A stretch of DNA of 12,389 bases from the NCBI GenBank assembly GCA_024689605.1, contig JAILDD010000236.1, forward strand, positions 1-12,389. The letters are read 5' to 3'. This DNA comes from Lachnospiraceae bacterium. GTDB taxonomy: Bacteria > Bacillota_A > Clostridia > Lachnospirales > Lachnospiraceae. Position numbers and translations under genes: made by a program. Positions 1 through 12,389 of the stretch are shown one piece after another. The notes under the pieces were generated by a model, which saw nothing but the letters and a program-made list of their open reading frames with translations, ran no database searches and was not told the origin of the DNA. Numbering within the stretch: position 1 is the first letter of the stretch; each line of letters opens with the position of its first letter.

Positions 1-775
1 TTTCCGCAACCACTTTCAGTAATTCCTCGTCCTTTGATATATCAATGGAACACTGCGTCATCCAGTGCATCTTAAGCTTTTTTATCTCACTGCAGAGAGC
101 AAAGGCATACTCCCTGTTTGAAAATAGATTGTCATCCAGCAAAAGGAACTGCTTGAATCCGAGTTCCTTTACCCGCTTTATATCCCGGATCACGTCCGGT
201 ATCTCACGCCTTAAATACTGGCCGTGATACAGACAGTATATGGAGCAGAAACTGCAGGTCTTTGGGCACCCTCTTCCCGCCTGTACCGGAAGAAAATTAC
301 CTATCCTCTTTTTCAGTACCAGCTCGTACCTGGGCAGCGGAGTCTCTAACTTCGTAAGTTTCTTTTGATACACCTTCTTAAGCGTGCCGTTACGGTAATC
401 CTCTATCATCTCGCCCCAGGTCTCTTCCGAATCGCCTATCATGACGCTGTCACAGTATTTCTTCGCTTCTTCAGGCATCAGTGAAACCATATAGCCACCC
501 AGGATAACTGTTTTTCCCAGCGCCCTGAATTTATTCGCTATGTCAATGGTACGCATCACGGCATGTCCCATGCTGCTTATGCCTATCAGCTCCGCATCAG
601 TGTCAAAAGGCACATCCTCAATGGTCTCATAGCACAGCTCCACCTCAAAATCATCAGGCGTAAGTGCTGCCAGAAGCGGAAGTGCAAGACCCACAAAATA
701 GAGCCTGCTCTTCTTTACCAGGTTACCGTACTGGTCATATGGTGTAGGTTGTATTAATAAAATCTTATTTTTCAT
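1..775 (-). CDS. B12-binding radical SAM protein E (N-terminal 258 codons, runs off the left edge)
   Basis: This is the N-terminal part of a cobalamin-type radical SAM enzyme; the reading frame is open from the ATG at 775 to base 1 and continues outside the window. Residues 1 to about 130 look like a B12-binding Rossmann domain: strand MKNKILLIQP at the start, an ELIGISSMG segment near 62-70, and VILGGY near 90-95. I see no DxHxxG cobalamin-ligand motif, which is often lost in class B radical SAM proteins. The radical SAM core starts with C170-x3-C174-x2-C177 (GRGCPKTCSFCS), the ligands of the 4Fe-4S cluster that cleaves SAM, followed by the LLLDDN strand near 151 bases from the left edge. 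The YQGQYLRRE stretch after the cluster recalls the hopanoid C-2 methylase (HpnP) side of the family rather than proteins A-D. It has its own likely promoter (920-948). The substrate is unknown. The SD is weak (GAGAAG a few bases before ATG). Confidence 0.9.
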   Translation of the reverse strand, partial: MKNKILLIQPTPYDQYGNLVKKSRLYFVGLALPLLAALTPDDFEVELCYETIEDVPFDTDAELIGISSMGHAVMRTIDIANKFRALGKTVILGGYMVSLMPEEAKKYCDSVMIGDSEETWGEMIEDYRNGTLKKVYQKKLTKLETPLPRYELVLKKRIGNFLPVQAGRGCPKTCSFCSIYCLYHGQYLRREIPDVIRDIKRVKELGFKQFLLLDDNLFSNREYAFALCSEIKKLKMHWMTQCSIDISKDEELLKVVAE

Positions 776-967: not shown

Positions 968-2350
968 CTATAACACAATCATCCGCTTAATCTTTACAAA
1001 AAATACCTTTATGATATACAAAACAGCACCCGGGTAATTATTATCCTTGTATAAAGGTGACTTGCGGTTCTTAAATGCCAGTCCCAGAGAAAGCTTGTAA
1101 TACTCCCTCGTAAATGTTCCCACGCTCATATGCTCCGGCTTCAGAAGACAGTGAAAAAGATCCTGCTTGGTCACATCCTTATTTATCATCTGATCCTCGT
1201 ATTTCTTGTACATGGCAGAACCCTGCATGGGTGTGAATACAGAGACCGTCGGAATAATTTTTCTGGCCGCGATCCAGTTATAAAGTTTCTTAAAATCCTC
1301 TTTGGTCATTCCCGGGTGTACTATAAAAAGCCCTGCACATATCACATTGTTTTCAGCAAGAATACGAATGCATTCCTCATTCTCAGAAACCGTGACTCTC
1401 TTATTATAGGAATCCAGCTCCTCTTCGCTGGTTGCTTCCAGCCCCACCATTATCAGTGAAAGACCTATTTCCGCAAATTCCTTTATTATATCCTCATTGT
1501 GTGCGATAAAATCCGCACGCCCATAGATAAGATATTTCTTATGAATATCCCTCTCCTTTATCAGACGGATAAATTCTTTCAGATAATCCCGGTCAATCAG
1601 GAAATCATCATCAGTAATATGTATCGCCGGCACATCAAGTGACGCAATTTCATCCACTAAACTCTCCACGCTCCTGCAGGCATAGCGTCCGCTGTTCCTG
1701 TTTGTACAGAAGCAGAAATTGCAGGCTTTCCTGCAGCTGTATGAATTCTTTACCAGTGCAAGAGGTCTGAAACAGAGATACCTAAAGCGGTGCTTGTTCT
1801 TATAAAAATATGTCCTGTCCGGAACCGGCAGATCAGCCGGTGTCTCCACCACCTTTGGATTGACTACCCACTCTCCGTTTTCACGGTAGCATATTCCCGG
1901 GATATCCTTTAATGATATCCCTGCAGCACTATCATCTTCTGCCCGCTTCTCCTGCTCTATATATCTGATCAGTTTCTTCTGGTTTTCCAGTCCGCTCAGA
2001 TGATAAAGATAATCTGCCTTTGACCCAAAATAATTTGCGTAATTGATCTCGACATTCGATCCCCCCAAAATAATCTGTATCTTTGGATCATAGGACTTTA
2101 TCACATCACAGTACTTTATCACCAGTTTCTGCTGTGTTATATATCCTGTAACACAGACAACATCCGGCTTAACTTCCTTAAGCTTCTTCTTCATAGAAGT
2201 CAGTTCGTACCTCCGGTCATAAATTACCGCATGATGACCCATGGCAGTAAACACCGTATAGAGATACTCCATCTCTAGCGGTTCATGCTCCACCAGATAT
2301 GTATAACTGAATATTCCTACTGTCTCAGGTTTTATGAGAAGTATGTTCAC
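968..2350 (-). CDS. B12-binding-type radical SAM protein A (460 aa)
   Basis: This is the last gene of the tandem array of four radical SAM paralogues. Residues 1 to about 130 form the B12-binding-like domain (MNILLIKP strand, EPLEMEYL at 23-30, VTGYIT at 67-72, IILGGSNVE at 93-101); no DxHxxG histidine motif is seen. A PDR linker (177-179) leads to the radical SAM core, with cluster ligands C206-x3-C210-x2-C213 and an extra cysteine C215 directly after. Further core marks are TDDDF (246-250), YGRADFIA (276-283), VGLEA (302-306) and YNKR (315-318). The end (about 440-460) is hydrophobic and basic, possibly membrane-touching. The start is a GTG at 2350: an in-frame TGA lies directly upstream and an AGAGG SD sits at 2361-2365. 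The gap to rSAM B is 17 bases. It most resembles rSAM D of the same array. Role by family: radical chemistry (methyl transfer, C-C bond formation) on an unactivated carbon; the substrate is not known. Confidence 0.93.
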   Translation of the reverse strand: MNILLIKPETVGIFSYTYLVEHEPLEMEYLYTVFTAMGHHAVIYDRRYELTSMKKKLKEVKPDVVCVTGYITQQKLVIKYCDVIKSYDPKIQIILGGSNVEINYANYFGSKADYLYHLSGLENQKKLIRYIEQEKRAEDDSAAGISLKDIPGICYRENGEWVVNPKVVETPADLPVPDRTYFYKNKHRFRYLCFRPLALVKNSYSCRKACNFCFCTNRNSGRYACRSVESLVDEIASLDVPAIHITDDDFLIDRDYLKEFIRLIKERDIHKKYLIYGRADFIAHNEDIIKEFAEIGLSLIMVGLEATSEEELDSYNKRVTVSENEECIRILAENNVICAGLFIVHPGMTKEDFKKLYNWIAARKIIPTVSVFTPMQGSAMYKKYEDQMINKDVTKQDLFHCLLKPEHMSVGTFTREYYKLSLGLAFKNRKSPLYKDNNYPGAVLYIIKVFFVKIKRMIVL

Positions 2351-2367
2351 TCACAAAATTCCTCTTA

Positions 2368-3690
2368 TCATTTATTCTTATACTTTTTATTGAACAGATG
2401 AGTTATCCCCGCCCAGTAGATCCGAGGATAGTTCACATAGTAAAGGAAATGAAACTCCAGCTTGAACAGAAGCATGGGCATATTGCTCGGCTTCATCAGA
2501 ACGCTGGTACCACCGGTTCTTCTGTAGGTATAGTTGTAAAGTTTGTCCTTGTTTTCCTCATATACACTCGTACCCTTAAACGGAATGAGGATACTGAAAA
2601 GAACCCATATCAGGCCTTCGTCTCTTATGAACCTGTTTATGTTCATGAAGTCCTTATGCTTGAAATCATAGTTTATGACAAAGAGTCCCACACAGAGCAT
2701 ATTATGCTCCCTGAGTATCCGTACAGCATTTTTATTTATAACCACGCTGGAATTCTTATTGTATTTCTCAAGGGTAGAATCCTCCACTGCTTCCAGCCCC
2801 ACCAGCATATCACGGATGCCTGCCTTGTAAATAAGAGGCATGATGTCCTCGCAGTTCACTATACTGTCCGCCCTGGAAAAGATCATAAAAGTCTTGTGGC
2901 AGCCGAGTGCCAGAAGTCTTTCGCAAAATTCCTTCACCCGCTCTTTATTGACCAGGAAGTCATCATCTATGATAAAGATCTTGTCATTGTCAAGATTCAT
3001 GATCTCATCTATCACATCGTCCAGTTCCCGCACCCTGTAAGCACAGCTGTTGAACTGCCTTGATATACAGAACTTACAGTTCTGGGGACAGGAAAAAGCA
3101 GTTTTCATCATAGAAAAGCAGCCCTTTGCCAGCACTTTGAACTTATCCCTGTTCTCATAGAAATGGCTTCTGTCCGGAAGTATCCCGTAATCGCTCACAG
3201 GCTCCCCCTTAAGATTCTGCACCCATTTTCCATTTTCATCGCGGAAGGAAATGCCGCTGCAGTTCTTAAGAGTTTCGATTTCCATGTCATTCCTTACGGC
3301 AAGACGGAACGAATCCAGGCCGTTGTCATAGTAAACATAATCAACCTCATCCAGCAGGAAGTCCTCGTGATTGATGACCACTTCCGGCCCCCCTACCATT
3401 ATCTTTACATCAGGACGTTTTTTCCTCAGGAATTTAATGAGCTTCAGAACATACCATGCAGTATTGGACATAACAGAAAAACCCGCAACGGTAACGCCAT
3501 TATCGTCTATCTTTTTTAAAAGACGTGAATACCTTCCTATGGGGCTTTCTATGCTCTCGTCATAGATAAAGCCTTCCCTCCCCTCTGCCTTAATGCAGGC
3601 CATAAGATACTCCAGGCCCAGGGGTTCCAGACTTGCAACTCTCTTATCATAATGGACACGTACAAACATGTATTTCTGCTTCATGATCAA
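2368..3690 (-). CDS. B12-binding-type radical SAM protein B (440 aa)
   Basis: This is the third of the four tandem paralogues in order of transcription. The B12-binding-like domain spans roughly 1-135 (LEPLGLEYL at 21-29, IMVGGPE at 97-103, YYDNGLDSF at 120-128). The PDR linker is at 172-174 and the cluster ligands are C201-x3-C205-x2-C208. Unlike A, C and D it lacks the extra cysteine two residues after the last ligand (I209, S210 here). Core marks are IDDDF (241-245), SRADS (272-276), VGLEA (297-301) and YNKN (310-313). The C-terminal part (about 405-435) is rich in aromatic and hydrophobic residues. The start is uncertain: TTG at 3690 gives a 4-base overlap with the stop of rSAM C and has an AGG about 6 bases upstream, while the ATG at 3684 leaves a 2-base gap; either implies translational coupling. 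Its sequence is closest to rSAM C. The EPLGLE opening recalls hopanoid C-3 methylase HpnR, but nothing here points to hopanoids. The substrate is unknown. Confidence 0.92.
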   Translation of the reverse strand: MIMKQKYMFVRVHYDKRVASLEPLGLEYLMACIKAEGREGFIYDESIESPIGRYSRLLKKIDDNGVTVAGFSVMSNTAWYVLKLIKFLRKKRPDVKIMVGGPEVVINHEDFLLDEVDYVYYDNGLDSFRLAVRNDMEIETLKNCSGISFRDENGKWVQNLKGEPVSDYGILPDRSHFYENRDKFKVLAKGCFSMMKTAFSCPQNCKFCISRQFNSCAYRVRELDDVIDEIMNLDNDKIFIIDDDFLVNKERVKEFCERLLALGCHKTFMIFSRADSIVNCEDIMPLIYKAGIRDMLVGLEAVEDSTLEKYNKNSSVVINKNAVRILREHNMLCVGLFVINYDFKHKDFMNINRFIRDEGLIWVLFSILIPFKGTSVYEENKDKLYNYTYRRTGGTSVLMKPSNMPMLLFKLEFHFLYYVNYPRIYWAGITHLFNKKYKNK

Positions 3691-5030
3691 AACCAGCCTG
3701 TTCTCTTTGTATCATAACCTGTGCCGAAAAATGTCCTTACCATTATCTTTGGATAGGTCAGCACATGTATCCAGTAGTAACGGAACATGTATTCAAAGGA
3801 TGACATATTGGTGGGCTTAATGGTAATATGAGTTCCATCAAGCCTCCAGGATTTAAAATTCACCACCATGTCTTTATACTCATCATAGGCATCCGTACCT
3901 TTGTAGGGCGTAAAAATTCCGAACACCACCCACAGCAGGTTATTATCCTTAATGAATTTCATCAGGTTGCGGAAATCTTTCCTGGTAGCTGTATAGCTGA
4001 TAACAAACAGTCCGTCACAGACGATATTATTATCCAGAAGATTCTTTATGGCTTTTTCGTTTATCTCCTTTGATGTCTGCTTGTTATACTCATCCAGCAG
4101 TTCATCTGTGATAGCCTCCAGCCCCACAAGTATGTCCCTGAAGCCCGCCTCATACGCCAGGGGAAGAACATCAGGATTCTCAGCAATGAAATCAGCCCTT
4201 GCATATGCCATGAATTCCTTTTTTATTCCTCTTCTGATAACCTCGTTACAGAACTCAATGACACGTTCCTTATGGAAGAAAAACGTATCATCAACGAACC
4301 ATACCTTGTCGTGCTTAAGCTCCTCCAGCTCATCAAGCACTTCATTCATATCACGTTCAGTATATACGCCGCTATTCATTTTGGTACAGTAGCAGAAACT
4401 GCAGTTAAATGGGCAGGAAAAAGAAGCTTTGCTGAGAGCATACTTCCCCTTCATGAAAATGTAATTTTTCTTAAGTCCTCTGTAAAAAGCAGTCCTGTCC
4501 GGCTTGTTTATGAAACCGCATACCGGGTCGCCTTTTTCCTTTACAACCCATTCGCCGTTCTTCTTAAATGCAATGCCTGTCTGCTCATCCATTACATTAA
4601 TATCAAGTCCTGCTGACCATATGGCCTTCAATGACCTAAGTCCGTTATCATAATAGACAATATCAATATCATCGGTTAAAAACTCACGGTAATTCATTTC
4701 CGCTTCCGGTCCGCCCACCATTATCGTTATATCCGGAAACTTCTGTTTGAGCTGCTTCGCCCTTTTTGTAATATAGTCAACCGTATTCGCATTGGCATTC
4801 AGCCCCACAAAATTATATCCGCCCTTTTTAATAATGCTGCACATCCTGCTGAAGCGGAAAGTCCAGGGTCTGTCGAACTCATCATGTATCTCGCAGGGGA
4901 TTTCCAGATCCCTTGCAAGACCGGCAAGATACTCCAGTCCCAATGGTTCCAGATGTGCCACAAGGGACGAATACTTCGGACGTATGAGAAGAACCTTCAG
5001 TTCTTTTTTTGCATCATTTGACTGTGACAT
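3687..5030 (-). CDS. B12-binding-type radical SAM protein C (447 aa)
   Basis: This is the second paralogue of the array. The B12-binding-like domain covers about 10-140 (LKVLLIRP at 11-18, HLEPLGLEYL at 26-35, IMVGGPEAEMN at 103-113, YYDNGLRS at 126-133). The PDR linker is at 177-179, followed by the radical SAM core with C206-x3-C210-x2-C213 and an additional C215. The usual DDDF is altered to VDDTF (246-250). Other marks are YARADFIA (276-283), VGLEA (302-306) and YNKQT (315-319). The tail (about 412-447) is aromatic and basic (YYWIHVLTYPKIMV) and may touch the membrane or bind an acyl chain. The start ATG at 5030 is fixed by an AGAGGG SD at 5036-5041 with 5-base spacing. It is nearest to rSAM B in sequence, for example over the GGPE and YYDNGL segments and the KPTNM/KPSNM motif. 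The gap to rSAM D is 13 bases. Function by family only: SAM radical chemistry, probably cobalamin-assisted; substrate unknown. Confidence 0.93.
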   Translation of the reverse strand: MSQSNDAKKELKVLLIRPKYSSLVAHLEPLGLEYLAGLARDLEIPCEIHDEFDRPWTFRFSRMCSIIKKGGYNFVGLNANANTVDYITKRAKQLKQKFPDITIMVGGPEAEMNYREFLTDDIDIVYYDNGLRSLKAIWSAGLDINVMDEQTGIAFKKNGEWVVKEKGDPVCGFINKPDRTAFYRGLKKNYIFMKGKYALSKASFSCPFNCSFCYCTKMNSGVYTERDMNEVLDELEELKHDKVWFVDDTFFFHKERVIEFCNEVIRRGIKKEFMAYARADFIAENPDVLPLAYEAGFRDILVGLEAITDELLDEYNKQTSKEINEKAIKNLLDNNIVCDGLFVISYTATRKDFRNLMKFIKDNNLLWVVFGIFTPYKGTDAYDEYKDMVVNFKSWRLDGTHITIKPTNMSSFEYMFRYYWIHVLTYPKIMVRTFFGTGYDTKRTGWF

Positions 5031-5043
5031 AAATACCCTCTTT

Positions 5044-6420
5044 CTATCCGTGCTTCCTCTCCCCCATGATCAGCTTCTTCCAGTACTGGTTGTTTACCAT
5101 TGCGGCTCCCCAGGTCAGTTTAAGCGTATCATGCAGGCCGTATTTCTTCACCATATACCACCAGCTCACGGGATTTGCAGTGATCAGGTAATACAGGACC
5201 ATCGTATACCAGTAATACCTGCGTACGGAAATATGGTCCGGCCGCACCACCAGATGTGCAAGATCCCATTTTTCGTACTCATCCTCTCCCACTATAAACC
5301 TCGGCCTGTACTTTTCATAAATGTCTGTCCCCCGTAAAGGCGTCAGAGGCTGCAGGTTTACAAATACCAGCCCCAGCTTTTTTATCCATTTATGAAGCGC
5401 TGAGAAATCCGCCCAGGTCCAGTCAAGTCCAAGGATAAACGTGCCATAGCACTCCACGTCATATTTCCTGAGGGTACCCACTGCCTTTTCATTTATCTCC
5501 ACATTTGTCCGCTTGTTGTAGTCATCCAGCTGTCTGCTGTCACAGGATTCAAGACCTACAATGACAGCCCGAAGTCCCACTTCCTTGAAACGCTTAATGA
5601 CATCATCGTTTGCTGCGATAAAATCTGCTCTGCCATATATCAGATATTTTTTCTTTATGTCCCGCTTTTCCAGCAGGTCGCAGAACTCAAGGATCCTCTT
5701 CCTGTCTACAAGGAAATCGTCATCCACTATATAAATTTCCGTTTCCTTTATGGATTCAAGTTCTTCAACTATGCTTTCAAGGCTTCTGGCAAAATACTGG
5801 TCATCCATTATCTGCCTGCAGAAACAGAACTTGCAGTTGTAGGGACAGCCGAAGGAGGTCTTGATAAGGCTGCAGTTCCTGTGGAACATGTAATAATACT
5901 TTGAGCGGTATGCATCTACCTTGCTCCTGTCCGGGAAACGGTAATCAAATACAGTATCCTTTTTAGGTGCGGGCTTTTCTCCCGAATAGATGCACTCTAT
6001 CTCATCCTCCGGTTTCTTTCCCTCAAGTGAATTCAAAATATCTATAAAAGTCCTTATACCATTTGCCCGAATGATATAATCCACATACTCGCTTTCAAAA
6101 TCCCCGGGATTTACCTCAGCATGGACCCCGCCGATAATGGTCTTTATGCCGGGATCCACCTCTTTGGCTTTTCTCGCATAATCCTTCATAATATTTACAT
6201 GGGAGATATAGCCTGTAATTCCCACCACATCAGGCGCATACTTTTTCACAAAATACTTCACATCTTTTTTCTCGATGATCATATCTATTATGGTACATGT
6301 ATGTCCGAGGGGTTCTATATTTGCGGAAATATATTCAAGCTCCAGGGGCTCGCAGATCATCACGTTCTGCAGTCCTATGGTCTCTTTATCCGGTCTCGGT
6401 CTGAATAACAATACGTTCAT
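5044..6420 (-). CDS. B12-binding-type radical SAM protein D (458 aa)
   Basis: This is the first radical SAM gene of the array. The B12-binding-like domain spans about 1-135 (MNVLLFRP, CEPLELEYI at 23-31, GITGYISHV at 67-75, IIGGVHAEVN at 95-104, RANGIR at 118-123). The PDR linker is at 163-165 and the 4Fe-4S ligands are C192-x3-C196-x2-C199, again with an extra cysteine, C201. Core marks are VDDDF (232-236), YGRADFIA (262-269), VGLES (288-292) and YNKRT (301-305). The C-terminus (about 400-450) is long and tryptophan/tyrosine-rich, which would suit a hydrophobic substrate or membrane contact. The ATG at 6420 has a clear AGAGGA SD (6425-6430). The 44 bases between it and the upstream acyltransferase gene are the largest gap within the operon, so an extra start site there is possible, although no promoter stands out. 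It is most similar to rSAM A. Substrate unknown. Confidence 0.93.
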   Translation of the reverse strand: MNVLLFRPRPDKETIGLQNVMICEPLELEYISANIEPLGHTCTIIDMIIEKKDVKYFVKKYAPDVVGITGYISHVNIMKDYARKAKEVDPGIKTIIGGVHAEVNPGDFESEYVDYIIRANGIRTFIDILNSLEGKKPEDEIECIYSGEKPAPKKDTVFDYRFPDRSKVDAYRSKYYYMFHRNCSLIKTSFGCPYNCKFCFCRQIMDDQYFARSLESIVEELESIKETEIYIVDDDFLVDRKRILEFCDLLEKRDIKKKYLIYGRADFIAANDDVIKRFKEVGLRAVIVGLESCDSRQLDDYNKRTNVEINEKAVGTLRKYDVECYGTFILGLDWTWADFSALHKWIKKLGLVFVNLQPLTPLRGTDIYEKYRPRFIVGEDEYEKWDLAHLVVRPDHISVRRYYWYTMVLYYLITANPVSWWYMVKKYGLHDTLKLTWGAAMVNNQYWKKLIMGERKHG

Positions 6421-6424
6421 TGGT

Positions 6425-6430
6425 TCCTCT
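6425..6430 (-). promoter_or_regulatory. Strong ribosome binding site of rSAM D
   Basis: The minus strand reads AGAGGA, with AGAGG 5 bases from the ATG at 6420. It confirms this start and shows that the first radical SAM gene is translated on its own initiation signal, unlike the overlapping acyltransferase genes before it. Confidence 0.7.
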
Positions 6431-6464
6431 GATATCTAATACAAAATACGGCTTTACGGTTTTT

Positions 6465-7574
6465 TCATTCCATCCGAAAAACCTTAAAATCCGGGAAATC
6501 ATATCTGTATTCAAGCAGTCTCTTGCCCAGTATGGCAAACATGTTCAGGAAAGGATTCGTGTGGTGCGCATAAAAGTATCTTTTTGACAATTCTGCACCG
6601 AACTTCATTTTTGTAAGTTCTGATGTCTGCCCGAAATCTATGGTGGTCAGATTTTTCTCGATTGCAAATCCGACTATATGCAGCAGCATGAAGAAATACA
6701 GATCCGCTGTATTCTGCATGCTCTCATAATCCATTCCGCAAAACTGGAAAACCAGCTTTTCACCTTCTTCATGCAGCAGCACAAAACCCGCAGGTCTGCC
6801 GTCCTTTACGAAGACCAGCCTCGTGCCTTCACTTTCTTCAAAAAACTTTCTGTCAAGGCATTCCAGCTTATATTCCGACTTCCTGTACGTATTCAAATAC
6901 AGGGGATATATTTCCCAGTGCTTCACTTTCTTATCAGCTGTTCCCGCCGTATTCTGTACATCAGAAAATTTTCCGGTATCTGCATTTTGGCGACTGTCGG
7001 ATATTTCTTTCCTGTATACACTGACCCCCCTGCACCTTTTCTCAGCCAGCCTTATCCTTCTCCTGTACTGGCTGCGGAGCGAAGCCACATAATCATCTAT
7101 AGTGCGGTATTCTTTTTTTATAGACAGCACGCAGCTCGGAAGGGTCTCGCCAAAACCCATGCCTTTTATTTTTACCGGTTCGTCAACATTTAATATAAGC
7201 TTCCCGCCCTTTATCCTCTTGCAGTAGGAAAGCAGGAATTCAAGGTCATTGGTAACATAGCCGCTGTTACTTAAGGAACACGGGAAGCCGACGGTCTTTA
7301 CATTCATCATCCATTCGGAATTTCCCAATGTCATTATGTTCATCCGGCTTTCGTAAATTATAAAGAAAGCAAAGCTTTCACCGGATTCAATATAATGGTA
7401 TGTCTGCCGAAAGGGATTGGTCTCCTTAAGAAGCTTAAGCATTCCCTCCGTATATGGATACTTTAGTTCCTGAAACACAGCCCTTTTTTTCAGAATATCG
7501 AGCATTACCTCCGGCTGCTCACAGCTGAAAACCTTTATTCTGTCTTTTTCATTTTTAATCGATTTCTTTTTCAT
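6465..7574 (-). CDS. GNAT-fold acyltransferase, BioF2/FemAB-like (369 aa)
   Basis: The protein looks like a GNAT-superfamily acyltransferase of the BioF2-like/FemAB-like type (two related halves). Marks are a DDYVASLRSQYRRRIRLAEK stretch at 160-179, typical of the joint before the second half; a strand segment RLVFVKDGRPAGFVLL (252-267); and the C-terminal DFGQTSELTKMKFG (313-326) followed by YFYAHH, characteristic of this group. Family members move an acyl or aminoacyl group onto an amine or peptidoglycan-like acceptor. Between the halves, residues about 191-216 are a polar, Asp/Asn/Thr/Ser-rich stretch that looks like a flexible insert. The start overlaps the end of the previous acyltransferase gene by 20 bases and no good SD precedes the ATG at 7574, so translation is probably coupled. 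With a ligase and carrier protein just upstream, it may use acyl-ACP as donor (inference). Which acceptor it uses cannot be read from the sequence. Confidence 0.85.
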   Translation of the reverse strand: MKKKSIKNEKDRIKVFSCEQPEVMLDILKKRAVFQELKYPYTEGMLKLLKETNPFRQTYHYIESGESFAFFIIYESRMNIMTLGNSEWMMNVKTVGFPCSLSNSGYVTNDLEFLLSYCKRIKGGKLILNVDEPVKIKGMGFGETLPSCVLSIKKEYRTIDDYVASLRSQYRRRIRLAEKRCRGVSVYRKEISDSRQNADTGKFSDVQNTAGTADKKVKHWEIYPLYLNTYRKSEYKLECLDRKFFEESEGTRLVFVKDGRPAGFVLLHEEGEKLVFQFCGMDYESMQNTADLYFFMLLHIVGFAIEKNLTTIDFGQTSELTKMKFGAELSKRYFYAHHTNPFLNMFAILGKRLLEYRYDFPDFKVFRME

Positions 7575-8643
7575 ATACGGCGTACTGCTTATATCGTCCG
7601 TCAGTTATCATCTCACAGATGCTGTTTGAATCCTCATTCTCATCAAGTATCCAGGACGACTCCATAAAGGAACAGTTATAATTCGACAAGGTCTGATACA
7701 CGCAGTCCACCAGTGCCACAGGAAGCCCGCAGCCCCTGTATTCATCCAGCACGCCCCACTCCATTACCTTGACAGTCTTTATGCTTTTTCCCTTAAGCTT
7801 ATTCAGGAAAAAATGTTTTGTCCCGAAGGACTCTCCGGGCTTAGCCAGCTCATTATAGTCAGGATACCAGAGTATAAAACCCACCGGCCTTTCTCCGTCA
7901 AAAGCAAAATAGAGCGAGTCCTCATTTATAAAGAGGAACAGTTCCTTCAGCATCTCCAGGTCATCTTCATAATCCCTGCGGTAATAGTACTTGTGCTCCG
8001 TAAAGCACTCGTTATTAAGATCCGTATAGGCTTTTGCATAGTACTCAAATTTCTTTTTATCAAAAGTCCTGAATTCATATTTACGCTTTAGCTTTGAAAT
8101 AAGCGCGCTGTACTGGTCCAGCTTATGGTCCAAAGTTTTGGCATAATAGGAATTAAGCTTTATGGCCTGACATCCCAGTTCCTTGAAATAATCATTATAG
8201 AATGATGCATTTCCGGGGGATGAGAATGAATTCACTTTGTCATAATGCGAAGCCAGAAAGCCAAGGCCGTAGTTGAGATGACCCGACAGACCTATTACAA
8301 TCCTTTTACAGCCATATTTACTGCCCAGCTTTTCAGCATGACCGATCAGCATTTTAACCGCATCACTGCAGCCTTCCAATGCCTCAAAAAAACAGACCTG
8401 GACATACTCAGGAAGAAGCGGTGCAAATGCGATGATTGCTTCACACAGCACATCCCCGGTATCATCAAGTATCATGACAGGTGTGATCTTAAGATTTTGA
8501 GTAAAATGAAGCTTCTCTGCAAAGATCTCCTCTATCATGAAATAATTATTATCAATGTACTTAGCTTCGCTTTTATACTTTTTTTCGCGAAAGGAAAGAA
8601 ACTGCTTTTTGTCTTTTTTTTCTTCAACAGTCTTAAGTTGCAT
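7555..8643 (-). CDS. GNAT family acyltransferase, YghO-like (362 aa)
   Basis: The C-terminal third carries the GNAT acyl-CoA/pantetheine-binding motif: GVLDEYRGCGLPVALVD (297-313), with the R/QxxGxG/A loop at R303-G304-C305-G306. The closing block ESSWILDENEDSN (328-340), then DGRYKQYAVYEK (348-359), is typical of the YghO-like family, a large GNAT group of about 370-390 residues, so the length fits. Residues 1-50 are lysine-rich and charged. A middle segment with FAFDGERPVGFILWYP (246-261) is a typical GNAT beta strand pair. The gene starts at ATG 8643, overlapping the end of the carrier protein gene by 11 bases, with an AGGGA close upstream. This tight joint to the carrier protein suggests that the pantetheine arm donating the acyl group is that of the ACP rather than CoA (inference). 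The acceptor is unknown. YghO-like proteins have no well-established substrate that I can name. Confidence 0.87.
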   Translation of the reverse strand: MQLKTVEEKKDKKQFLSFREKKYKSEAKYIDNNYFMIEEIFAEKLHFTQNLKITPVMILDDTGDVLCEAIIAFAPLLPEYVQVCFFEALEGCSDAVKMLIGHAEKLGSKYGCKRIVIGLSGHLNYGLGFLASHYDKVNSFSSPGNASFYNDYFKELGCQAIKLNSYYAKTLDHKLDQYSALISKLKRKYEFRTFDKKKFEYYAKAYTDLNNECFTEHKYYYRRDYEDDLEMLKELFLFINEDSLYFAFDGERPVGFILWYPDYNELAKPGESFGTKHFFLNKLKGKSIKTVKVMEWGVLDEYRGCGLPVALVDCVYQTLSNYNCSFMESSWILDENEDSNSICEMITDGRYKQYAVYEKEID

Positions 8644-8866
8644 CGTTCCCTACCAGTGTTTCCAGATAATCGCAGAGCTCGCCTACAGTAACGATATGGA
8701 TATATTTTTCCTCGTCCAGCTCTACGCCGTATTTTTCCTCAAAGATACAGATCAGGTTCAGGAAATCAAAGGAGCTGAGTCCCAGCTCTTTTCTGAAATT
8801 AGTTTCTCTGCTGATTCCCGTAATGTGGTATTCCGAATCAAGTATTTTTTTTATTTCCTCAAACAT
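8633..8866 (-). CDS. Acyl carrier protein, dedicated type (77 aa)
   Basis: This is a small acidic protein of normal ACP length (77 residues). The segment FRKELGLSSFDFLNLICIFEEKYG corresponds to helix II of ACPs in two parts: FRKELGL (24-30) leads to the phosphopantetheine site, where the standard D-S-L is replaced by S31-S32-F33. S32 is the expected modified serine, and DFLNL with an acidic helix follows. A phosphopantetheinyl transferase encoded elsewhere must activate it. It carries acyl thioesters in the cytosol. It sits 19 bases after the AMP-forming ligase gene and overlaps the YghO-like acyltransferase gene, so its likely partners are the ligase that loads it and the acyltransferases and radical SAM proteins that act on its cargo (inference). 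The unusual motif and the absence of fab genes nearby argue against its being the housekeeping fatty-acid ACP. A peptidyl or D-alanyl carrier role cannot be excluded. Confidence 0.9.
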   Translation of the reverse strand: MFEEIKKILDSEYHITGISRETNFRKELGLSSFDFLNLICIFEEKYGVELDEEKYIHIVTVGELCDYLETLVGNDAT

Positions 8867-8885
8867 ATTTAAAGTCCGCTCCGTT

Positions 8886-10457
8886 TTATGTATATAGCTT
8901 CCTGATAATCTTCTTTGAACTGGTCTTCCGGAAAGCCTCCGTCATTATATCGTAATCATCGATCCGCATGTATGACGGCAGGCTCTCATTAAGTGCTTTA
9001 AGGTCTTCCCTGAACTTCTGCTCTTTCTGCTTGCCGTCCTCTCCCATATAGACTTTCGCACAGACGATGCTCACATTATTTATACGTTTTGATACCACCA
9101 GGCTTTCTTCCACTTCCTCGAAAGAATTTATCTTGGCCTCAAGATACTCCGGTGCAATATTTTCGCCGTTCTCCGTAATGATAAGATTCTTTTTGCGTCC
9201 CGTGACGAACACCAGTTTTCCCAAAGTGTATCCTATGTCACCGGTCTTAAAATATTCGCCCTCCATTGCGGCACGGGTTGCTTCCTCATCCTTATAATAG
9301 CCCAACATTACATTAGGACCCTTGACCAGCAGCTCGCCGTCCTCCGCCACTTTGACATCTATGTGTTTCATAATAGTGCCCGCGCTCCCCGGCACATTGT
9401 TGATGGTACGGCTGACGGCTATAGTGGGCGAACACTCGGTCAAGCCGTAACCGTTGAGTATAGTGATGCCTATGTCATCGAACAGTTCCACATACTCACG
9501 GCGAAGCGGCGCACCGCCGCTTACCACAAGCCTAAGTCCCGGAGTAATTATATTTCCGAAAAATTTATGCCTCAGGTCTATCCCCACTTTTCTCAGTGCA
9601 TTGCTAACTTTAATAAGACGCTGAAGGGATTTTTCCTTATTCTGTTTTTTCGCCTCCCGCAGTATGTTGTCATACATGCCTTCGATGACCATTGGCACAG
9701 CTCCGAAAAAGAAGGGATCAAAAGCCTTGATATCCCTGAACAGTTTCTTCACGTCACGGTTAATACAAAGAGTGGTGCCGTTATACAGTGTTGCCAGTAT
9801 GCAGGGATTGAAACCATAGGTATGATGCATGGGAAGAAATGAAAGTGTAGGTGACTTCAGCACATTATTTTCCAGTGTCCCCCTGATGTTCGTTATCACA
9901 TTGTACTGTGTGAGCATCACACCCTTCATCCTTCCGTCAGTGCCGGAGGTGGAAGCAAGTACTGCAAAACGGTCTTTATTTGTCTTTTTTGTTTCTTCAA
10001 AAAATTGCGGAACAGAAATCTCCGTCTTTAGAATATTCTGAAAATTCCGGTCTATATTGAACTTTTTTATTTCCGAATCCCGGTCGACCTTCTTCTCAGT
10101 CCTGTCTGTAACAAAAACAGCAGATACATCGAAACGTTCCAGCATTTCGCCTATGACTTCCGGCGTGGCCTCTCTGTCCATGGGAACTATGACTGAATCC
10201 AGTACTGCAGCAAGATAAATGATTATGTATTCATAACGATTCTCCGACAGTATGGCTATATGTTTTCTGCTTAAACCTTCCTTCTGCAGAAACGCATAAA
10301 CCGATGCCACTCTTTCAACCATCTCCGAATAAGTGACATCAGTGATCTTTTCGCCCTCAAAATAACGCAGGGCAACTACTGATGAAGACTCCTCATAGCG
10401 TCCCCTCAGCATTGCCGCAAAATCGTCATATATGATTGTTTCAAGATATTGTTCCAT
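8886..10457 (-). CDS. AMP-forming acyl ligase, acyl-CoA synthetase/fatty acyl-AMP ligase-like (523 aa)
   Basis: This is a member of the ANL adenylate-forming superfamily. It activates a carboxylic acid with ATP to acyl-AMP and passes it to a thiol, here plausibly the ACP encoded directly downstream. Core motifs in order: phosphate loop STSGTDGRMKGVMLT (169-183), in which the usual proline before Lys-Gly is methionine; LPMHHTYGF (208-216); SGGAPLRREY (313-322); NGYGLTECSP (335-344), with the catalytic Glu at 341; YFKTGDIG (402-409), with Asp407 binding the ribose; VTGRKKNLIITENGENIAPE (418-437), the hinge region; and TSSKKIIR (512-519), with K516 as the C-terminal catalytic lysine where most relatives have SSGK. 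Order and length (523) fit a single-module long-chain acyl-CoA synthetase-type enzyme, not an NRPS module. The ATG at 10457 lies 6 bases after the yigZ stop, with only a weak SD. The substrate chain cannot be derived from the sequence; a fatty acid is the best guess. Confidence 0.92.
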   Translation of the reverse strand: MEQYLETIIYDDFAAMLRGRYEESSSVVALRYFEGEKITDVTYSEMVERVASVYAFLQKEGLSRKHIAILSENRYEYIIIYLAAVLDSVIVPMDREATPEVIGEMLERFDVSAVFVTDRTEKKVDRDSEIKKFNIDRNFQNILKTEISVPQFFEETKKTNKDRFAVLASTSGTDGRMKGVMLTQYNVITNIRGTLENNVLKSPTLSFLPMHHTYGFNPCILATLYNGTTLCINRDVKKLFRDIKAFDPFFFGAVPMVIEGMYDNILREAKKQNKEKSLQRLIKVSNALRKVGIDLRHKFFGNIITPGLRLVVSGGAPLRREYVELFDDIGITILNGYGLTECSPTIAVSRTINNVPGSAGTIMKHIDVKVAEDGELLVKGPNVMLGYYKDEEATRAAMEGEYFKTGDIGYTLGKLVFVTGRKKNLIITENGENIAPEYLEAKINSFEEVEESLVVSKRINNVSIVCAKVYMGEDGKQKEQKFREDLKALNESLPSYMRIDDYDIMTEAFRKTSSKKIIRKLYT

Positions 10458-10463
10458 ATGTAT

Positions 10464-11087
10464 CTACCAGTCTATCTCCACCGGGCGCGGTTCCGATATC
10501 TGTACTTTGCCGCCGGTCAGATCCTTAATTTTCTTTACGGCATCCTCATATACGGACTGTTCAAAGGCACAGGTATAAGTGACATCTGCGCCGTATTCCT
10601 GGGCACATATCCTTGCGTCGGCTGCTTCAATATAATTCTTCACTGCCCCCACATCGGCATATGAAAAAACAATATCAGCTTCCATCCCTGCCCGTATGGG
10701 CACTATCTCGCTTGAGGCAATTGCCTCCTTAAGCGCCTGAGTATATGCCCTTACCAGTCCTCCGGTTCCTAAAAGCGTCCCGCCGAAATACCTGGTCACC
10801 ACCACAACAGCGTCATGTATACCTTCAGATACCAGGGTCTCTAACAGGGGCCGTCCCGCTGTTCCTGAAGGTTCCCCGTCGTCTGAGCATCTGGATATCT
10901 CGTTATTCTCCCCTATCACAAAAGCATAGCAGTTGTGCTTTGCATCCCAGTACTGCTTCTTTACGGAAGCGATCAGCTCCGATGCCTCATTCTCATCCTT
11001 TACGGGACAAAGTCTTGCAATGAAACGGGATTTTTTTTCTTCATATTCACCGGTACCCCCGGTCCTTACGATCCTATACTCAGCCAT
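10464..11087 (-). CDS. yigZ: YigZ/IMPACT (UPF0029) family protein (207 aa)
   Basis: The N-terminal IMPACT domain shows the conserved RCSDDGEPSGTAGRPLLETL block (residues 66-85 from the chosen start) and the RYFGGTLLGTGGLVRAY block (99-115). A C-terminal domain of about 65 residues, as in E. coli YigZ and B. subtilis YvyE, follows; total length of about 205 is normal. The eukaryotic relative IMPACT modulates GCN2 and translation control; the bacterial role is not settled. I chose the ATG at 11087 because GGAGA (11092-11096) sits about 5 bases ahead of it. The ATG at 11102 would add five residues (MYGDR) but places that SD inside the gene. It is the first gene of the minus-strand run and ends 6 bases before the acyl ligase gene, so it is probably cotranscribed with it although its function looks unrelated. 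Confidence 0.93.
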   Translation of the reverse strand: MAEYRIVRTGGTGEYEEKKSRFIARLCPVKDENEASELIASVKKQYWDAKHNCYAFVIGENNEISRCSDDGEPSGTAGRPLLETLVSEGIHDAVVVVTRYFGGTLLGTGGLVRAYTQALKEAIASSEIVPIRAGMEADIVFSYADVGAVKNYIEAADARICAQEYGADVTYTCAFEQSVYEDAVKKIKDLTGGKVQISEPRPVEIDW

Positions 11088-11091
11088 CCGG

Positions 11092-11096
11092 TCTCC
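11092..11096 (-). promoter_or_regulatory. Ribosome binding site deciding the yigZ start
   Basis: GGAGA on the minus strand lies 4-5 bases before the ATG at 11087. The upstream ATG (11102) has no purine-rich element before it, so the shorter protein start is preferred. Confidence 0.6.
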
Positions 11097-11126
11097 ATAC
11101 ATTACTGTATCAAACTATCAGTATAA

Positions 11127-11252: not shown

Positions 11253-12389
11253 ATGAATTATACAAGAAGAGGCATCATAAATAAACAGCATGCCCTCAGT
11301 TCAAAGGGTGTAAAGTTCAAAAAAATGATCTGGATCACCATACTGAAGGCACTGCTTATATGTACCATATCTTTCATTGTCATAGGAAGCTGTATGGGAA
11401 TCGGCATGTTCAAGGGCATAATAGCCGGCGCCCCCAGCATCGCAACCATCGACGTAACTCCTACCGGCTATGCGACAATGCTCTATGACAGTGAGGGACA
11501 CCTGCTGACCAAACTGGTGGCTGAGAATTCCAACAGAACTTACGTTGGCGGGGACAAAATCCCTCAGCAGCTTAAAGACGCTTTCGTAGCTATAGAGGAC
11601 GAAAGATATTATGAACACAACGGTATCGATATCAAAGGTATCATGCGTGCCGCTGCCCTCGGCGCAAAAAACAAGTTCAATTTCTCACAGGGTGCAAGTA
11701 CCATCACCCAGCAGCTCATAAAAAACAGCGTATTCGACAAGTGGGCCACCGGCGAGACAAAGATGGAACGTGTAAAGCGTAAGATACAGGAACAGTACCT
11801 GGCCACAGAGTTGGAAAAAAACATGAGCAAGGATGACATCCTTGTTACTTACATGAACACTATAAACCTCGGCCAGAATACCCTGGGAGTACAGGCCGCG
11901 TCATTGCGCTATTTCGGAAAGCCCGTTTATGAACTCAACCTGTCGGAATGCGCCTGCATTGCCGGCATAACCAAGAATCCTTCAGCATACAATCCCATTA
12001 GTCACCCCGAGAAAAACAACGAGCGCCGCATCACGGTACTTAAGAAAATGCTCGAACTGGGATACATAGACCGGGAGACCTATGACGAAACAGTAGCAGA
12101 TGATGTTTATTCCCGCATAACCGAGGTCAATACACAGTCAAACGAGGAAACGATCTATACATATTTTGAGGATGAGGTGATCGAACAGGTCGTTGAAGAC
12201 CTTACCGAAATGTTCATCAACAGCGGCTATACCGAAGCCCAGGCATCCTCCAAAGCTTATACCCTGCTCTACAGCGGCGGCTTAAGCATATATACCACTC
12301 TTGATCCCACCATACAGTCCATGTGTGATGAGATTTACGCGGATGAAACCAATTATCCCGAAGGAACCAAGTGGTACCTGAATTACAAG
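11253..12389 (+). CDS. Class A penicillin-binding protein (N-terminal 379 codons, runs off the right edge)
   Basis: This is a bifunctional peptidoglycan synthase anchored in the membrane by one N-terminal helix (about 26-58) after a basic cytoplasmic stretch. The GT51 glycosyltransferase domain is complete with its five motifs: EDERYYEHNGID (115-126, catalytic Glu115), GASTITQQLIKN (147-158), RKIQEQYLATELE (176-188, second Glu about 180), YMNTINLGQNTLGVQAA (200-216) and AGITKNPSAYNP (237-248). It polymerises lipid II on the outer face of the membrane. After residue 290 the linker to the transpeptidase begins (GGLSIYTTLDPTIQ at 342-355 is the typical joint); the SxxK serine and later penicillin-binding motifs are beyond the window. 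It is transcribed away from yigZ with its own promoter at 11190-11219, so it is not part of the radical SAM operon. It resembles PBP1A-type proteins of Clostridia; the exact gene name is not assigned. Confidence 0.95.
   Translation, partial: MNYTRRGIINKQHALSSKGVKFKKMIWITILKALLICTISFIVIGSCMGIGMFKGIIAGAPSIATIDVTPTGYATMLYDSEGHLLTKLVAENSNRTYVGGDKIPQQLKDAFVAIEDERYYEHNGIDIKGIMRAAALGAKNKFNFSQGASTITQQLIKNSVFDKWATGETKMERVKRKIQEQYLATELEKNMSKDDILVTYMNTINLGQNTLGVQAASLRYFGKPVYELNLSECACIAGITKNPSAYNPISHPEKNNERRITVLKKMLELGYIDRETYDETVADDVYSRITEVNTQSNEETIYTYFEDEVIEQVVEDLTEMFINSGYTEAQASSKAYTLLYSGGLSIYTTLDPTIQSMCDEIYADETNYPEGTKWYLNYK

Follow-up and report, generated by a model that had tools for sequence, protein, structure and literature searches.

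What does a bacterium build with an acyl ligase, a dedicated acyl carrier protein, two acyltransferases and a row of radical SAM enzymes, all encoded one after another on a single strand? The question is raised by an operon in a Lachnospiraceae bacterium (GenBank assembly GCA_024689605.1, contig JAILDD010000236.1), of which the first 12,389 nucleotides, here called the window, were analyzed. An initial annotation had proposed that the operon makes an acyl chain modified at several positions and transferred to an amine or similar acceptor, an interpretation that our results support in part. The steady unit of the system proves to be four genes, G1-G2-RSa-RSe, and we put the probability that the operon makes a carbon-modified fatty amide at roughly 40%. 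What speaks for this product is the homology of G1 to the N-acyltransferase YghO, the Pfam domains of the ligase and carrier protein, the conserved core, the co-occurrence of RSa and RSe across genomes, and fatty-acid genes beside the cassette in one relative (locus L039).

Operon layout

The genes of the operon, in order of transcription, are:

8886-10457, minus strand: LIG, AMP-forming acyl ligase, 523 residues (PF00501, 188.6 bits; C-terminal domain PF23562)
8633-8866, minus strand: ACP, dedicated acyl carrier protein, 77 residues, with its serine in LGLSSF (PF00550, 35.1 bits)
7555-8643, minus strand: G1, tandem-GNAT N-acyltransferase (predicted), 362 residues, core (PF00583, 25.4 bits; YghO homologue)
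6465-7574, minus strand: G2, Acetyltransf_6 / FemX-like transferase, 369 residues, core (PF13480, 26.3 bits)
5044-6420, minus strand: RSa, B12-binding radical SAM enzyme, 458 residues, core (PF04055 and PF02310)
3687-5030, minus strand: RSb, B12-binding radical SAM paralogue, 447 residues, accessory (PF04055 and PF02310; clade of 33)
2368-3690, minus strand: RSc, B12-binding radical SAM paralogue, 440 residues, accessory (PF04055 and PF02310; clade of 28)
968-2350, minus strand: RSd, B12-binding radical SAM paralogue, 460 residues, accessory (PF04055 and PF02310; clade of 22)
2-775, minus strand: RSe, fifth radical SAM gene, first 258 residues up to the window end, core (open frame)

Pfam and NCBIfam scans bear out, in kind, the family names given in the initial annotation. 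The open reading frames from LIG to RSd fill 968-10457 and follow one another as first described, with gaps of at most 44 bases and several overlaps: the widest gap among the eight genes (44 bases) lies between G2 and RSa, and the pairs ACP-G1, G1-G2 and RSb-RSc overlap by 11, 20 and 4 bases. Across the window the minus-strand order is yigZ, LIG, ACP, G1, G2, RSa-RSd and the first 258 codons of RSe, with successive spacings of 6, 19, -11, -20, 44, 13, -4, 17 and 192 bases (negative values are overlaps). The array had been counted as four radical SAM genes and has five. RSe begins 192 bases past RSd, is 97-100% identical over its 258 residues to the RSe frames of loci L002-L004, and is intact in relatives (439 residues in L004). 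In keeping with the original reading, no polyketide synthase or nonribosomal peptide synthetase (NRPS) domain occurs in the window proteins scanned; short precursor peptides were not searched for. No Rfam family reached its gathering score in the window, hence no B12 riboswitch was found there.

A four-gene core with lineage-specific additions

Scanning genome contigs with a G1 alignment yielded 56 loci, to which ten cassette loci from genome searches were added; genes were annotated with tblastn. As L091 and L045 represent one contig, 65 of the 66 loci are distinct. A locus counted as untruncated when every cassette gene lay more than 600 bases from both ends of the sequence retrieved, which applied to 48 loci (47 distinct). 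The 56 loci derive mainly from rumen and gut Lachnospiraceae, with further examples in records labeled Butyrivibrio, Ruminococcus, Defluviitaleaceae, Oscillospiraceae, Clostridiaceae, Peptostreptococcaceae, Petrocella, Desulfopila and Deltaproteobacteria. Because the neighborhood is conserved in these 56 loci, the operon is not a chance arrangement, and the idea of a co-inherited gene set holds.

Among the 48 untruncated loci with G1 (distinct loci in parentheses), G2 is present in 45 (44), RSa in 47 (46) and RSe in 45 (44); LIG and ACP are each present in 23 (23), and a class I methyltransferase, MT, in 19 (18). With truncated loci included, the totals among all 66 (65) are 62 (61) for G2, 62 (61) for RSa, 53 (52) for RSe, 32 for LIG and 33 for ACP. 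The core G1-G2-RSa-RSe is kept across Lachnospiraceae, other Clostridia and the phylum of Desulfopila; its exceptions are L015 and L053, without RSe locally, L025 and L030, without G2, and L032, a lone G1 paralogue. LIG and ACP, present in only about half of the distinct untruncated loci, lie outside this core, and RSb-RSd are accessory.

Each untruncated cassette holds two to five radical SAM genes (neighboring copies of one type merged). RSb and RSc occur mostly with the Lachnospiraceae type, and two further radical SAM types, RSf and RSd2, are common in distant loci together with MT, whose top model is BioC, below its cut-off. The locus is reduced to the four core genes in L042, in L103 (genome G934) and perhaps in L052, where the contig ends. 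The genome of L042 (G009) carries at a second place (L101, contig C30) an RSb-like gene (46%) and a methyltransferase gene (35%), so the pathway may exceed the L042 locus, and "minimal" describes the locus, not the genome. An apparent array of eight radical SAM genes in L039 was rejected as an artefact of split frames, the tblastn pieces fitting five genes; likewise, apparent absences of G1 (L011, L014, L030, L033) and of ACP (such as L013, L022 and L040) reflected antisense frames, and tblastn finds both genes.

The two radical SAM members of the core also keep company at the level of whole genomes. AB2028, the Lachnospiraceae strain of L004, is presumably an isolate, since its record carries no label as a metagenome-assembled genome. 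In its class, Clostridia going by the name, RSa was matched at E <= 1e-40 in 16 of 391 genomes (13 orthologues at >= 44% identity, three matches at 29-37%) and RSe at E <= 1e-60 in 29 (13 orthologues at >= 47%, sixteen matches at <= 40%), the identity lines being drawn after the gap had been seen. The orthologues of both occupy an identical set of 13 genomes; at most four candidates were scored per genome, so misses are possible. Three of these genomes (G001, G009, G014) were earlier known carriers, G496 is the genome of L045, and all nine newly found ones encode G1 and G2 in the same stretch. The RSa matches at 29-37% (G475, G729, G782) were rejected as orthologues and have no adjoining G1 or G2, and RSe relatives at <= 40% sit in other gene settings in all seven cases examined (L110-L116). 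In the phylum of Desulfopila, RSa was matched at E <= 1e-90 in 2 of 297 genomes, one of them the known Desulfopila, and both carry the four core genes.

G1 and the ceramide N-acyltransferase YghO

The resemblance of G1 to YghO, previously noted as a likeness, can now be described as homology. G1 aligns with E. coli YghO over its full length (BLASTP E = 5e-21, 23% identity, 382 columns), HHalign gives a probability of 98.5%, and a profile of 18 cassette G1 proteins scores YghO at 104.5 bits, its sole match at E <= 10 among 416 frames of two E. coli stretches. By these comparisons, G1 is a true homologue of YghO, the Rhodobacterial ceramide N-acyltransferase, in a family whose best-studied enzyme is bCerS of Caulobacter. 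The best match of a G1 alignment profile among 177,635 PDB sequences scored 17.2 bits; the G1 model (pLDDT 89.5) has tandem GNATs as its best fold matches. A search of about 5.8 billion proteins returned 216 G1 matches at E <= 1e-3; among the best 120, every source name given is Lachnospiraceae. G1 is rare, occurring in 4 of 397 genomes in the family of AB2028, two of them (G259, G054) with no cassette nearby.

In the excerpted text of PMC9386255, yghO (ECD_02850) is listed as the acyl-CoA N-acyltransferase gene (aca) that Rhodobacteria need to make dihydroceramide, and the pathway has an ACP of its own, AcpR, charged by its own synthetase, AasR. The system described here resembles Rhodobacterial ceramide synthesis (AasR, AcpR, serine palmitoyltransferase or SPT, epimerase and YghO/Aca) in its YghO homologue and, as far as the excerpt describes AasR and AcpR (PMC9386255), in uniting a dedicated acyl ligase and ACP in one gene set; it differs in having no epimerase in the cassette and in adding five radical SAM enzymes and G2. 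LIG aligns with AasR at 33% over 111 residues plus a short motif, which does not amount to orthology, and ACP gave no meaningful alignment with AcpR; on these alignments the pair is analogous, not orthologous, to AasR and AcpR. Of 16 cluster genomes searched with E. coli Spt, 10 had no match at E <= 1e-20, among them the six Lachnospiraceae tested, G001-G005 and G007; the matches in the other six genomes (32-39% identity) may be ordinary alpha-oxoamine synthases. A sphingolipid pathway was rejected because SPT, AasR and AcpR are missing.

An alternative is a membrane lipid of another kind, in which the radical SAM enzymes would make a long-chain base by C-C coupling of an acyl chain with an amino acid, replacing SPT, and G1 would be a true ceramide-type synthase. 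YghO acts in ceramide synthesis in the excerpted account (PMC9386255), and the six Lachnospiraceae without an SPT-like protein at that threshold would need another amine source. We nevertheless consider this route unlikely: no precedent is known to us for such a radical SAM reaction, and the amine could be no more than an amino acid or polyamine.

A lone G1 paralogue, 50% identical and without a cassette, lies at 8641-9768 of L106, the contig of L032. Its neighbors are presumably related to indolepyruvate ferredoxin oxidoreductase and aryl-CoA ligase, names we assigned from sequence starts.

The ligase and its carrier protein

That an acyl ligase adjoins its own ACP is substantiated by domains PF00501 and PF00550, both of which pass their Pfam cut-offs. 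With its AMP-binding domain encoded next to an ACP gene, LIG classes as an acyl-ACP synthetase, with a putative acyl specificity and putative transfer to this ACP. The serine site of ACP (xSF) is present in 28 of 28 ACP frames (22 by regular expression, six by eye), and LIG reaches the cut-off of none of the 25 NCBIfam models listed.

Regular separation of this pair from the radical SAM array, which the initial annotation named as evidence against its proposal, is half borne out. Pair and array are found together in 23 of the 47 distinct untruncated loci, but the other 24 lack LIG and ACP, and of these, 23 keep radical SAM genes beside G1 and 22 also G2. The tblastn annotation places LIG in Lachnospiraceae loci plus L019, L027 and L038, and in none of the loci from Clostridiaceae, Peptostreptococcaceae, Petrocella, Desulfopila and Deltaproteobacteria, nor in the ten loci from genome searches. 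Four Lachnospiraceae with an array but no LIG in the locus (G004-G007) gave no LIG match genome-wide at E <= 1e-30; these are metagenome-assembled genomes and possibly incomplete. LIG and ACP thus form part of the set in certain lineages and are dispensable elsewhere; they act as a feeder specific to those lineages and lie outside the core.

At L107:7289-10114 the AB2028 genome also contains a second ligase-ACP pair, with identities of 33% and 37%, next to a gene for a class I methyltransferase.

Radical SAM enzymes

RSa, RSb, RSc and RSd each pass the Pfam gathering scores for PF04055 and PF02310, and PF02310 also exceeds its cut-off in one RSf and one RSd2 protein scanned. The B12 domain of RSe lies just under the Pfam cut-off (30.7 versus 32.1 bits in the L004 copy; no match in the L103 copy), so that, by this domain, only four of the enzymes are confidently B12-type. 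All 196 radical SAM frames contain a CxxxCxxC motif (188 within the searched span, eight elsewhere in the frame). In RSa, C192, C196, C199 and a further C201 are invariant among 16 diverse orthologues, and RSe has a further invariant cysteine, C181, near CxxxCxxC in 15. A tree of the 196 proteins resolves groups RSa-RSe, the further group RSf and RSd-like relatives. In the 16 loci where all nine genes occur, the median identity to the corresponding window protein is 88% for RSe (its 258 residues), 82% for RSa, 80% for RSb, 78% for RSc and 74% for RSd, compared with 64% for G1, 60% for LIG, 51% for G2 and 49% for ACP. The better conservation of the radical SAM enzymes is what one would predict for a system whose radical chemistry stays constant while its preference for acyl or amine partners shifts.

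For each of RSa-RSd, RSf, RSd2 and RSe, the top-scoring NCBIfam model is HpnR or BchE, a likeness to that branch of B12-type enzymes that stays far under the cut-offs: HpnR scores 67-181 bits (best 180.6) against 650, and BchE 92-137 against 481. The model for ladderane-type radical SAM enzymes (TIGR04072) gave 92.2 bits for RSf and 78 bits for RSe against a cut-off of 360, and the cassette, unlike that system, holds no FabF or desaturase gene. Hopanoid (HpnR) and ladderane membership were both rejected, as the cut-offs are not reached. A very improbable alternative arises from the same scores, namely that the operon modifies a tetrapyrrole or cobamide-like cofactor with BchE-like enzymes and, in other lineages, a BchM-like methyltransferase. 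BchE is the first or second model by score for the seven radical SAM types scanned and BchM the second for the methyltransferase; yet BchM reaches only 51.5 of 158.9 bits, BchE likewise falls far short, and HpnR or BioC does as well or better in most cases. An acyl ligase, an ACP and a YghO homologue do not fit such a role, and no tetrapyrrole gene was recognized among the flanks looked at, in the course of which no systematic search was made.

The nearest PDB profile neighbors of RSa are AprD4, OxsB, CysS, TokK and TsrM, and those of RSe are AprD4 and 9ccb. AprD4 and OxsB, which we take to belong to the apramycin and oxetanocin pathways, bring in the main and serious rival explanation, an acylated natural product, soluble or secreted (an antibiotic, a signal or a compound like a siderophore), whose amino-acid or sugar core would be built by the radical SAM enzymes and capped by G1 and G2, as in streptothricin- or apramycin-type pathways. 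We regard this as quite possible. Its patchy spread, with G1 in so few genomes of the family, is that of secondary metabolism; the core, in contrast, has evolved deeply and slowly across two phyla, G1 is nearest a lipid N-acyltransferase, and the ligase and ACP come with no condensing or NRPS gene in the window. Known outcomes of such radical SAM enzymes, as given in the excerpted text of PMC13331322, include methylation, ring contraction, thioether formation and ring formation, so that the reaction type cannot be read from sequence.

The second transferase, G2

G2 bears on the same rival. Its model (pLDDT 84.6) has as nearest folds Sbb17, FemX and MprF-type synthases at TM-scores of about 0.4 to 0.5, the value being about 0.5 for FemX and Sbb17, and the closest, Sbb17, is an aminoacyl-tRNA-dependent peptide synthase crystallized with streptothrisamine, a point in favor of a natural product. 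This likeness to the FemX / Sbb17 / MprF transferases is one of fold and not of sequence: no PDB chain matched G2 at E <= 0.1, profiles included. A protein search with G2 returned 173 matches, of which the best 120 were listed. From the modeled fold, the G2 donor may be either an aminoacyl-tRNA or an acyl thioester.

Proposed pathway

For a carbon-modified fatty amide, the product, the amine and the step order are what we infer from gene families and homology. LIG would adenylate a free carboxylic acid, probably a fatty acid, and load it onto the dedicated ACP; lineages without this pair would draw acyl-ACP straight from fatty-acid synthesis. G1, by its homology, would then move the acyl group from the thioester to a primary amine of the acceptor, and G2, with its FemX-like fold, may add a second acyl or aminoacyl unit. 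The obligatory radical chemistry, in which unactivated carbons are methylated or undergo C-C/C-N coupling, would be the task of RSa and RSe, as their family suggests, and RSb, RSc and RSd would add lineage-specific changes, a role that may fall elsewhere to RSf, RSd2 and the class I methyltransferase.

Several points weigh against this proposal. The radical SAM target may be the amine part and not the acyl chain, and the nearest solved relatives of RSa (AprD4, OxsB, CysS) and of RSe (AprD4, 9ccb), together with the marginal B12 domain of RSe, count against the proposal. With only about 23% identity to YghO, the acceptor of G1 may differ strongly, and small-molecule acetyltransferases are among its fold neighbors. 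The substrate of LIG is not fixed by homology, as no NCBIfam ligase model listed passes. Acyl-AcpR was shown, in the excerpted text of PMC9386255, to feed SPT and not the N-acyltransferase, so a transfer from ACP to G1 lacks a direct precedent in that system. The fatty-acid genes accD, accA and fabI have relatives beside the cassette in L039 only, among the loci fetched, other fatty-acid genes not having been searched for.

A more specific and more doubtful version of the fatty-amide proposal is that G1-G2-RSa-RSe form the core of an undescribed anaerobic lipid pathway. Its product would be a ceramide-like fatty amide, methylated or cross-linked in its backbone or chains through obligatory B12/radical chemistry; radical SAM paralogues would be swapped by lineage, and some gut Lachnospiraceae would feed the pathway through a private ligase and ACP. 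If the gene set does modify fatty-acyl amides by radical chemistry, anaerobes of rumen, gut, termite and sediment would make a new class of lipid or acylated metabolite usable as a biomarker, the YghO (ceramide-synthase) family would extend beyond sphingolipids, and the minimal four-gene loci would offer a compact system for sequential B12/radical SAM chemistry.

The membrane-spanning lipid synthase (Mss) pathway of Bacillota is comparable by description, in that Clostridia enzymes act on lipid chains. The excerpted text of PMC13274423 lists 561 Lachnospiraceae species that carry both mss and ger, and describes Mss as Tes-like. Distribution argues against identity with this diabolic acid pathway, the four G1-bearing genomes among 397 of the family standing against 561 species. 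In the open-access literature (titles and abstract starts; subscription papers and preprints lay outside), nothing was found on such a gene set or on radical SAM-modified fatty-acyl amides.

Flanking genes

The most widely shared flanking families are common to only five loci. MatE exporter genes lie within 4 kb of the cassette in L005, L006, L028, L029 and L031 (Pfam checked in L005, L029 and L031): in L005 (6669-8132) the gene shares its strand with LIG and stands 36 bases upstream, and in L028, L029 and L031 it is on the other strand. An AcrB-type pump gene occurs within 4 kb, on the other strand, in L021, L022 and L026 (Pfam checked in L021). These exporters hint at a secreted product and so speak for the natural-product rival and against the fatty amide; found in 8 of the 65 distinct loci and on either strand, they are not part of the core, yet they favor export in some lineages.

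In L039 (398-13367; Oscillospiraceae, no LIG or ACP), the cassette is preceded on its own strand by accD, a split accA and fabI, with about 1.1 kb and one 213-residue frame between them and G1. In this locus, presumably from termite gut going by the isolate name, the genes accA, RSd2 and RSa are all broken into several frames, and RSe occurs in two copies.

The remaining genes of the window are:

10464-11102, minus strand: yigZ (IMPACT family), 6 bases upstream of LIG (TIGR00257, 177.9 bits, above cut-off)
11253-12389, divergent: PBP1A-family gene at the far window end (family scan)

Both adjoin the cluster only in L001-L004, the four closest relatives; yigZ is possibly co-transcribed with the operon and lies outside the system.

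Among other neighbors, a lipoprotein-like gene lies between RSd and RSe in L004 (17723-18496), where the window has the 192-base gap. After the cassette of L053 (17534-19628) come genes for an ABC-type ATPase, a CobW-like protein and a cysteine-containing protein, maybe a metal or corrinoid activation set. The array of L088 is interrupted by what we take, from motifs, to be a reverse-transcriptase-like gene (7784-9130), with a long SMC-like gene adjoining (12723-17174). Finally, L112:4672-10760 and L111:7716-17088 hold a parallel array in which a gene for a GH3-family protein accompanies two or three radical SAM genes of RSe-like type and genes whose products have no Pfam match; it may represent a sister system that relies on a different activation chemistry.

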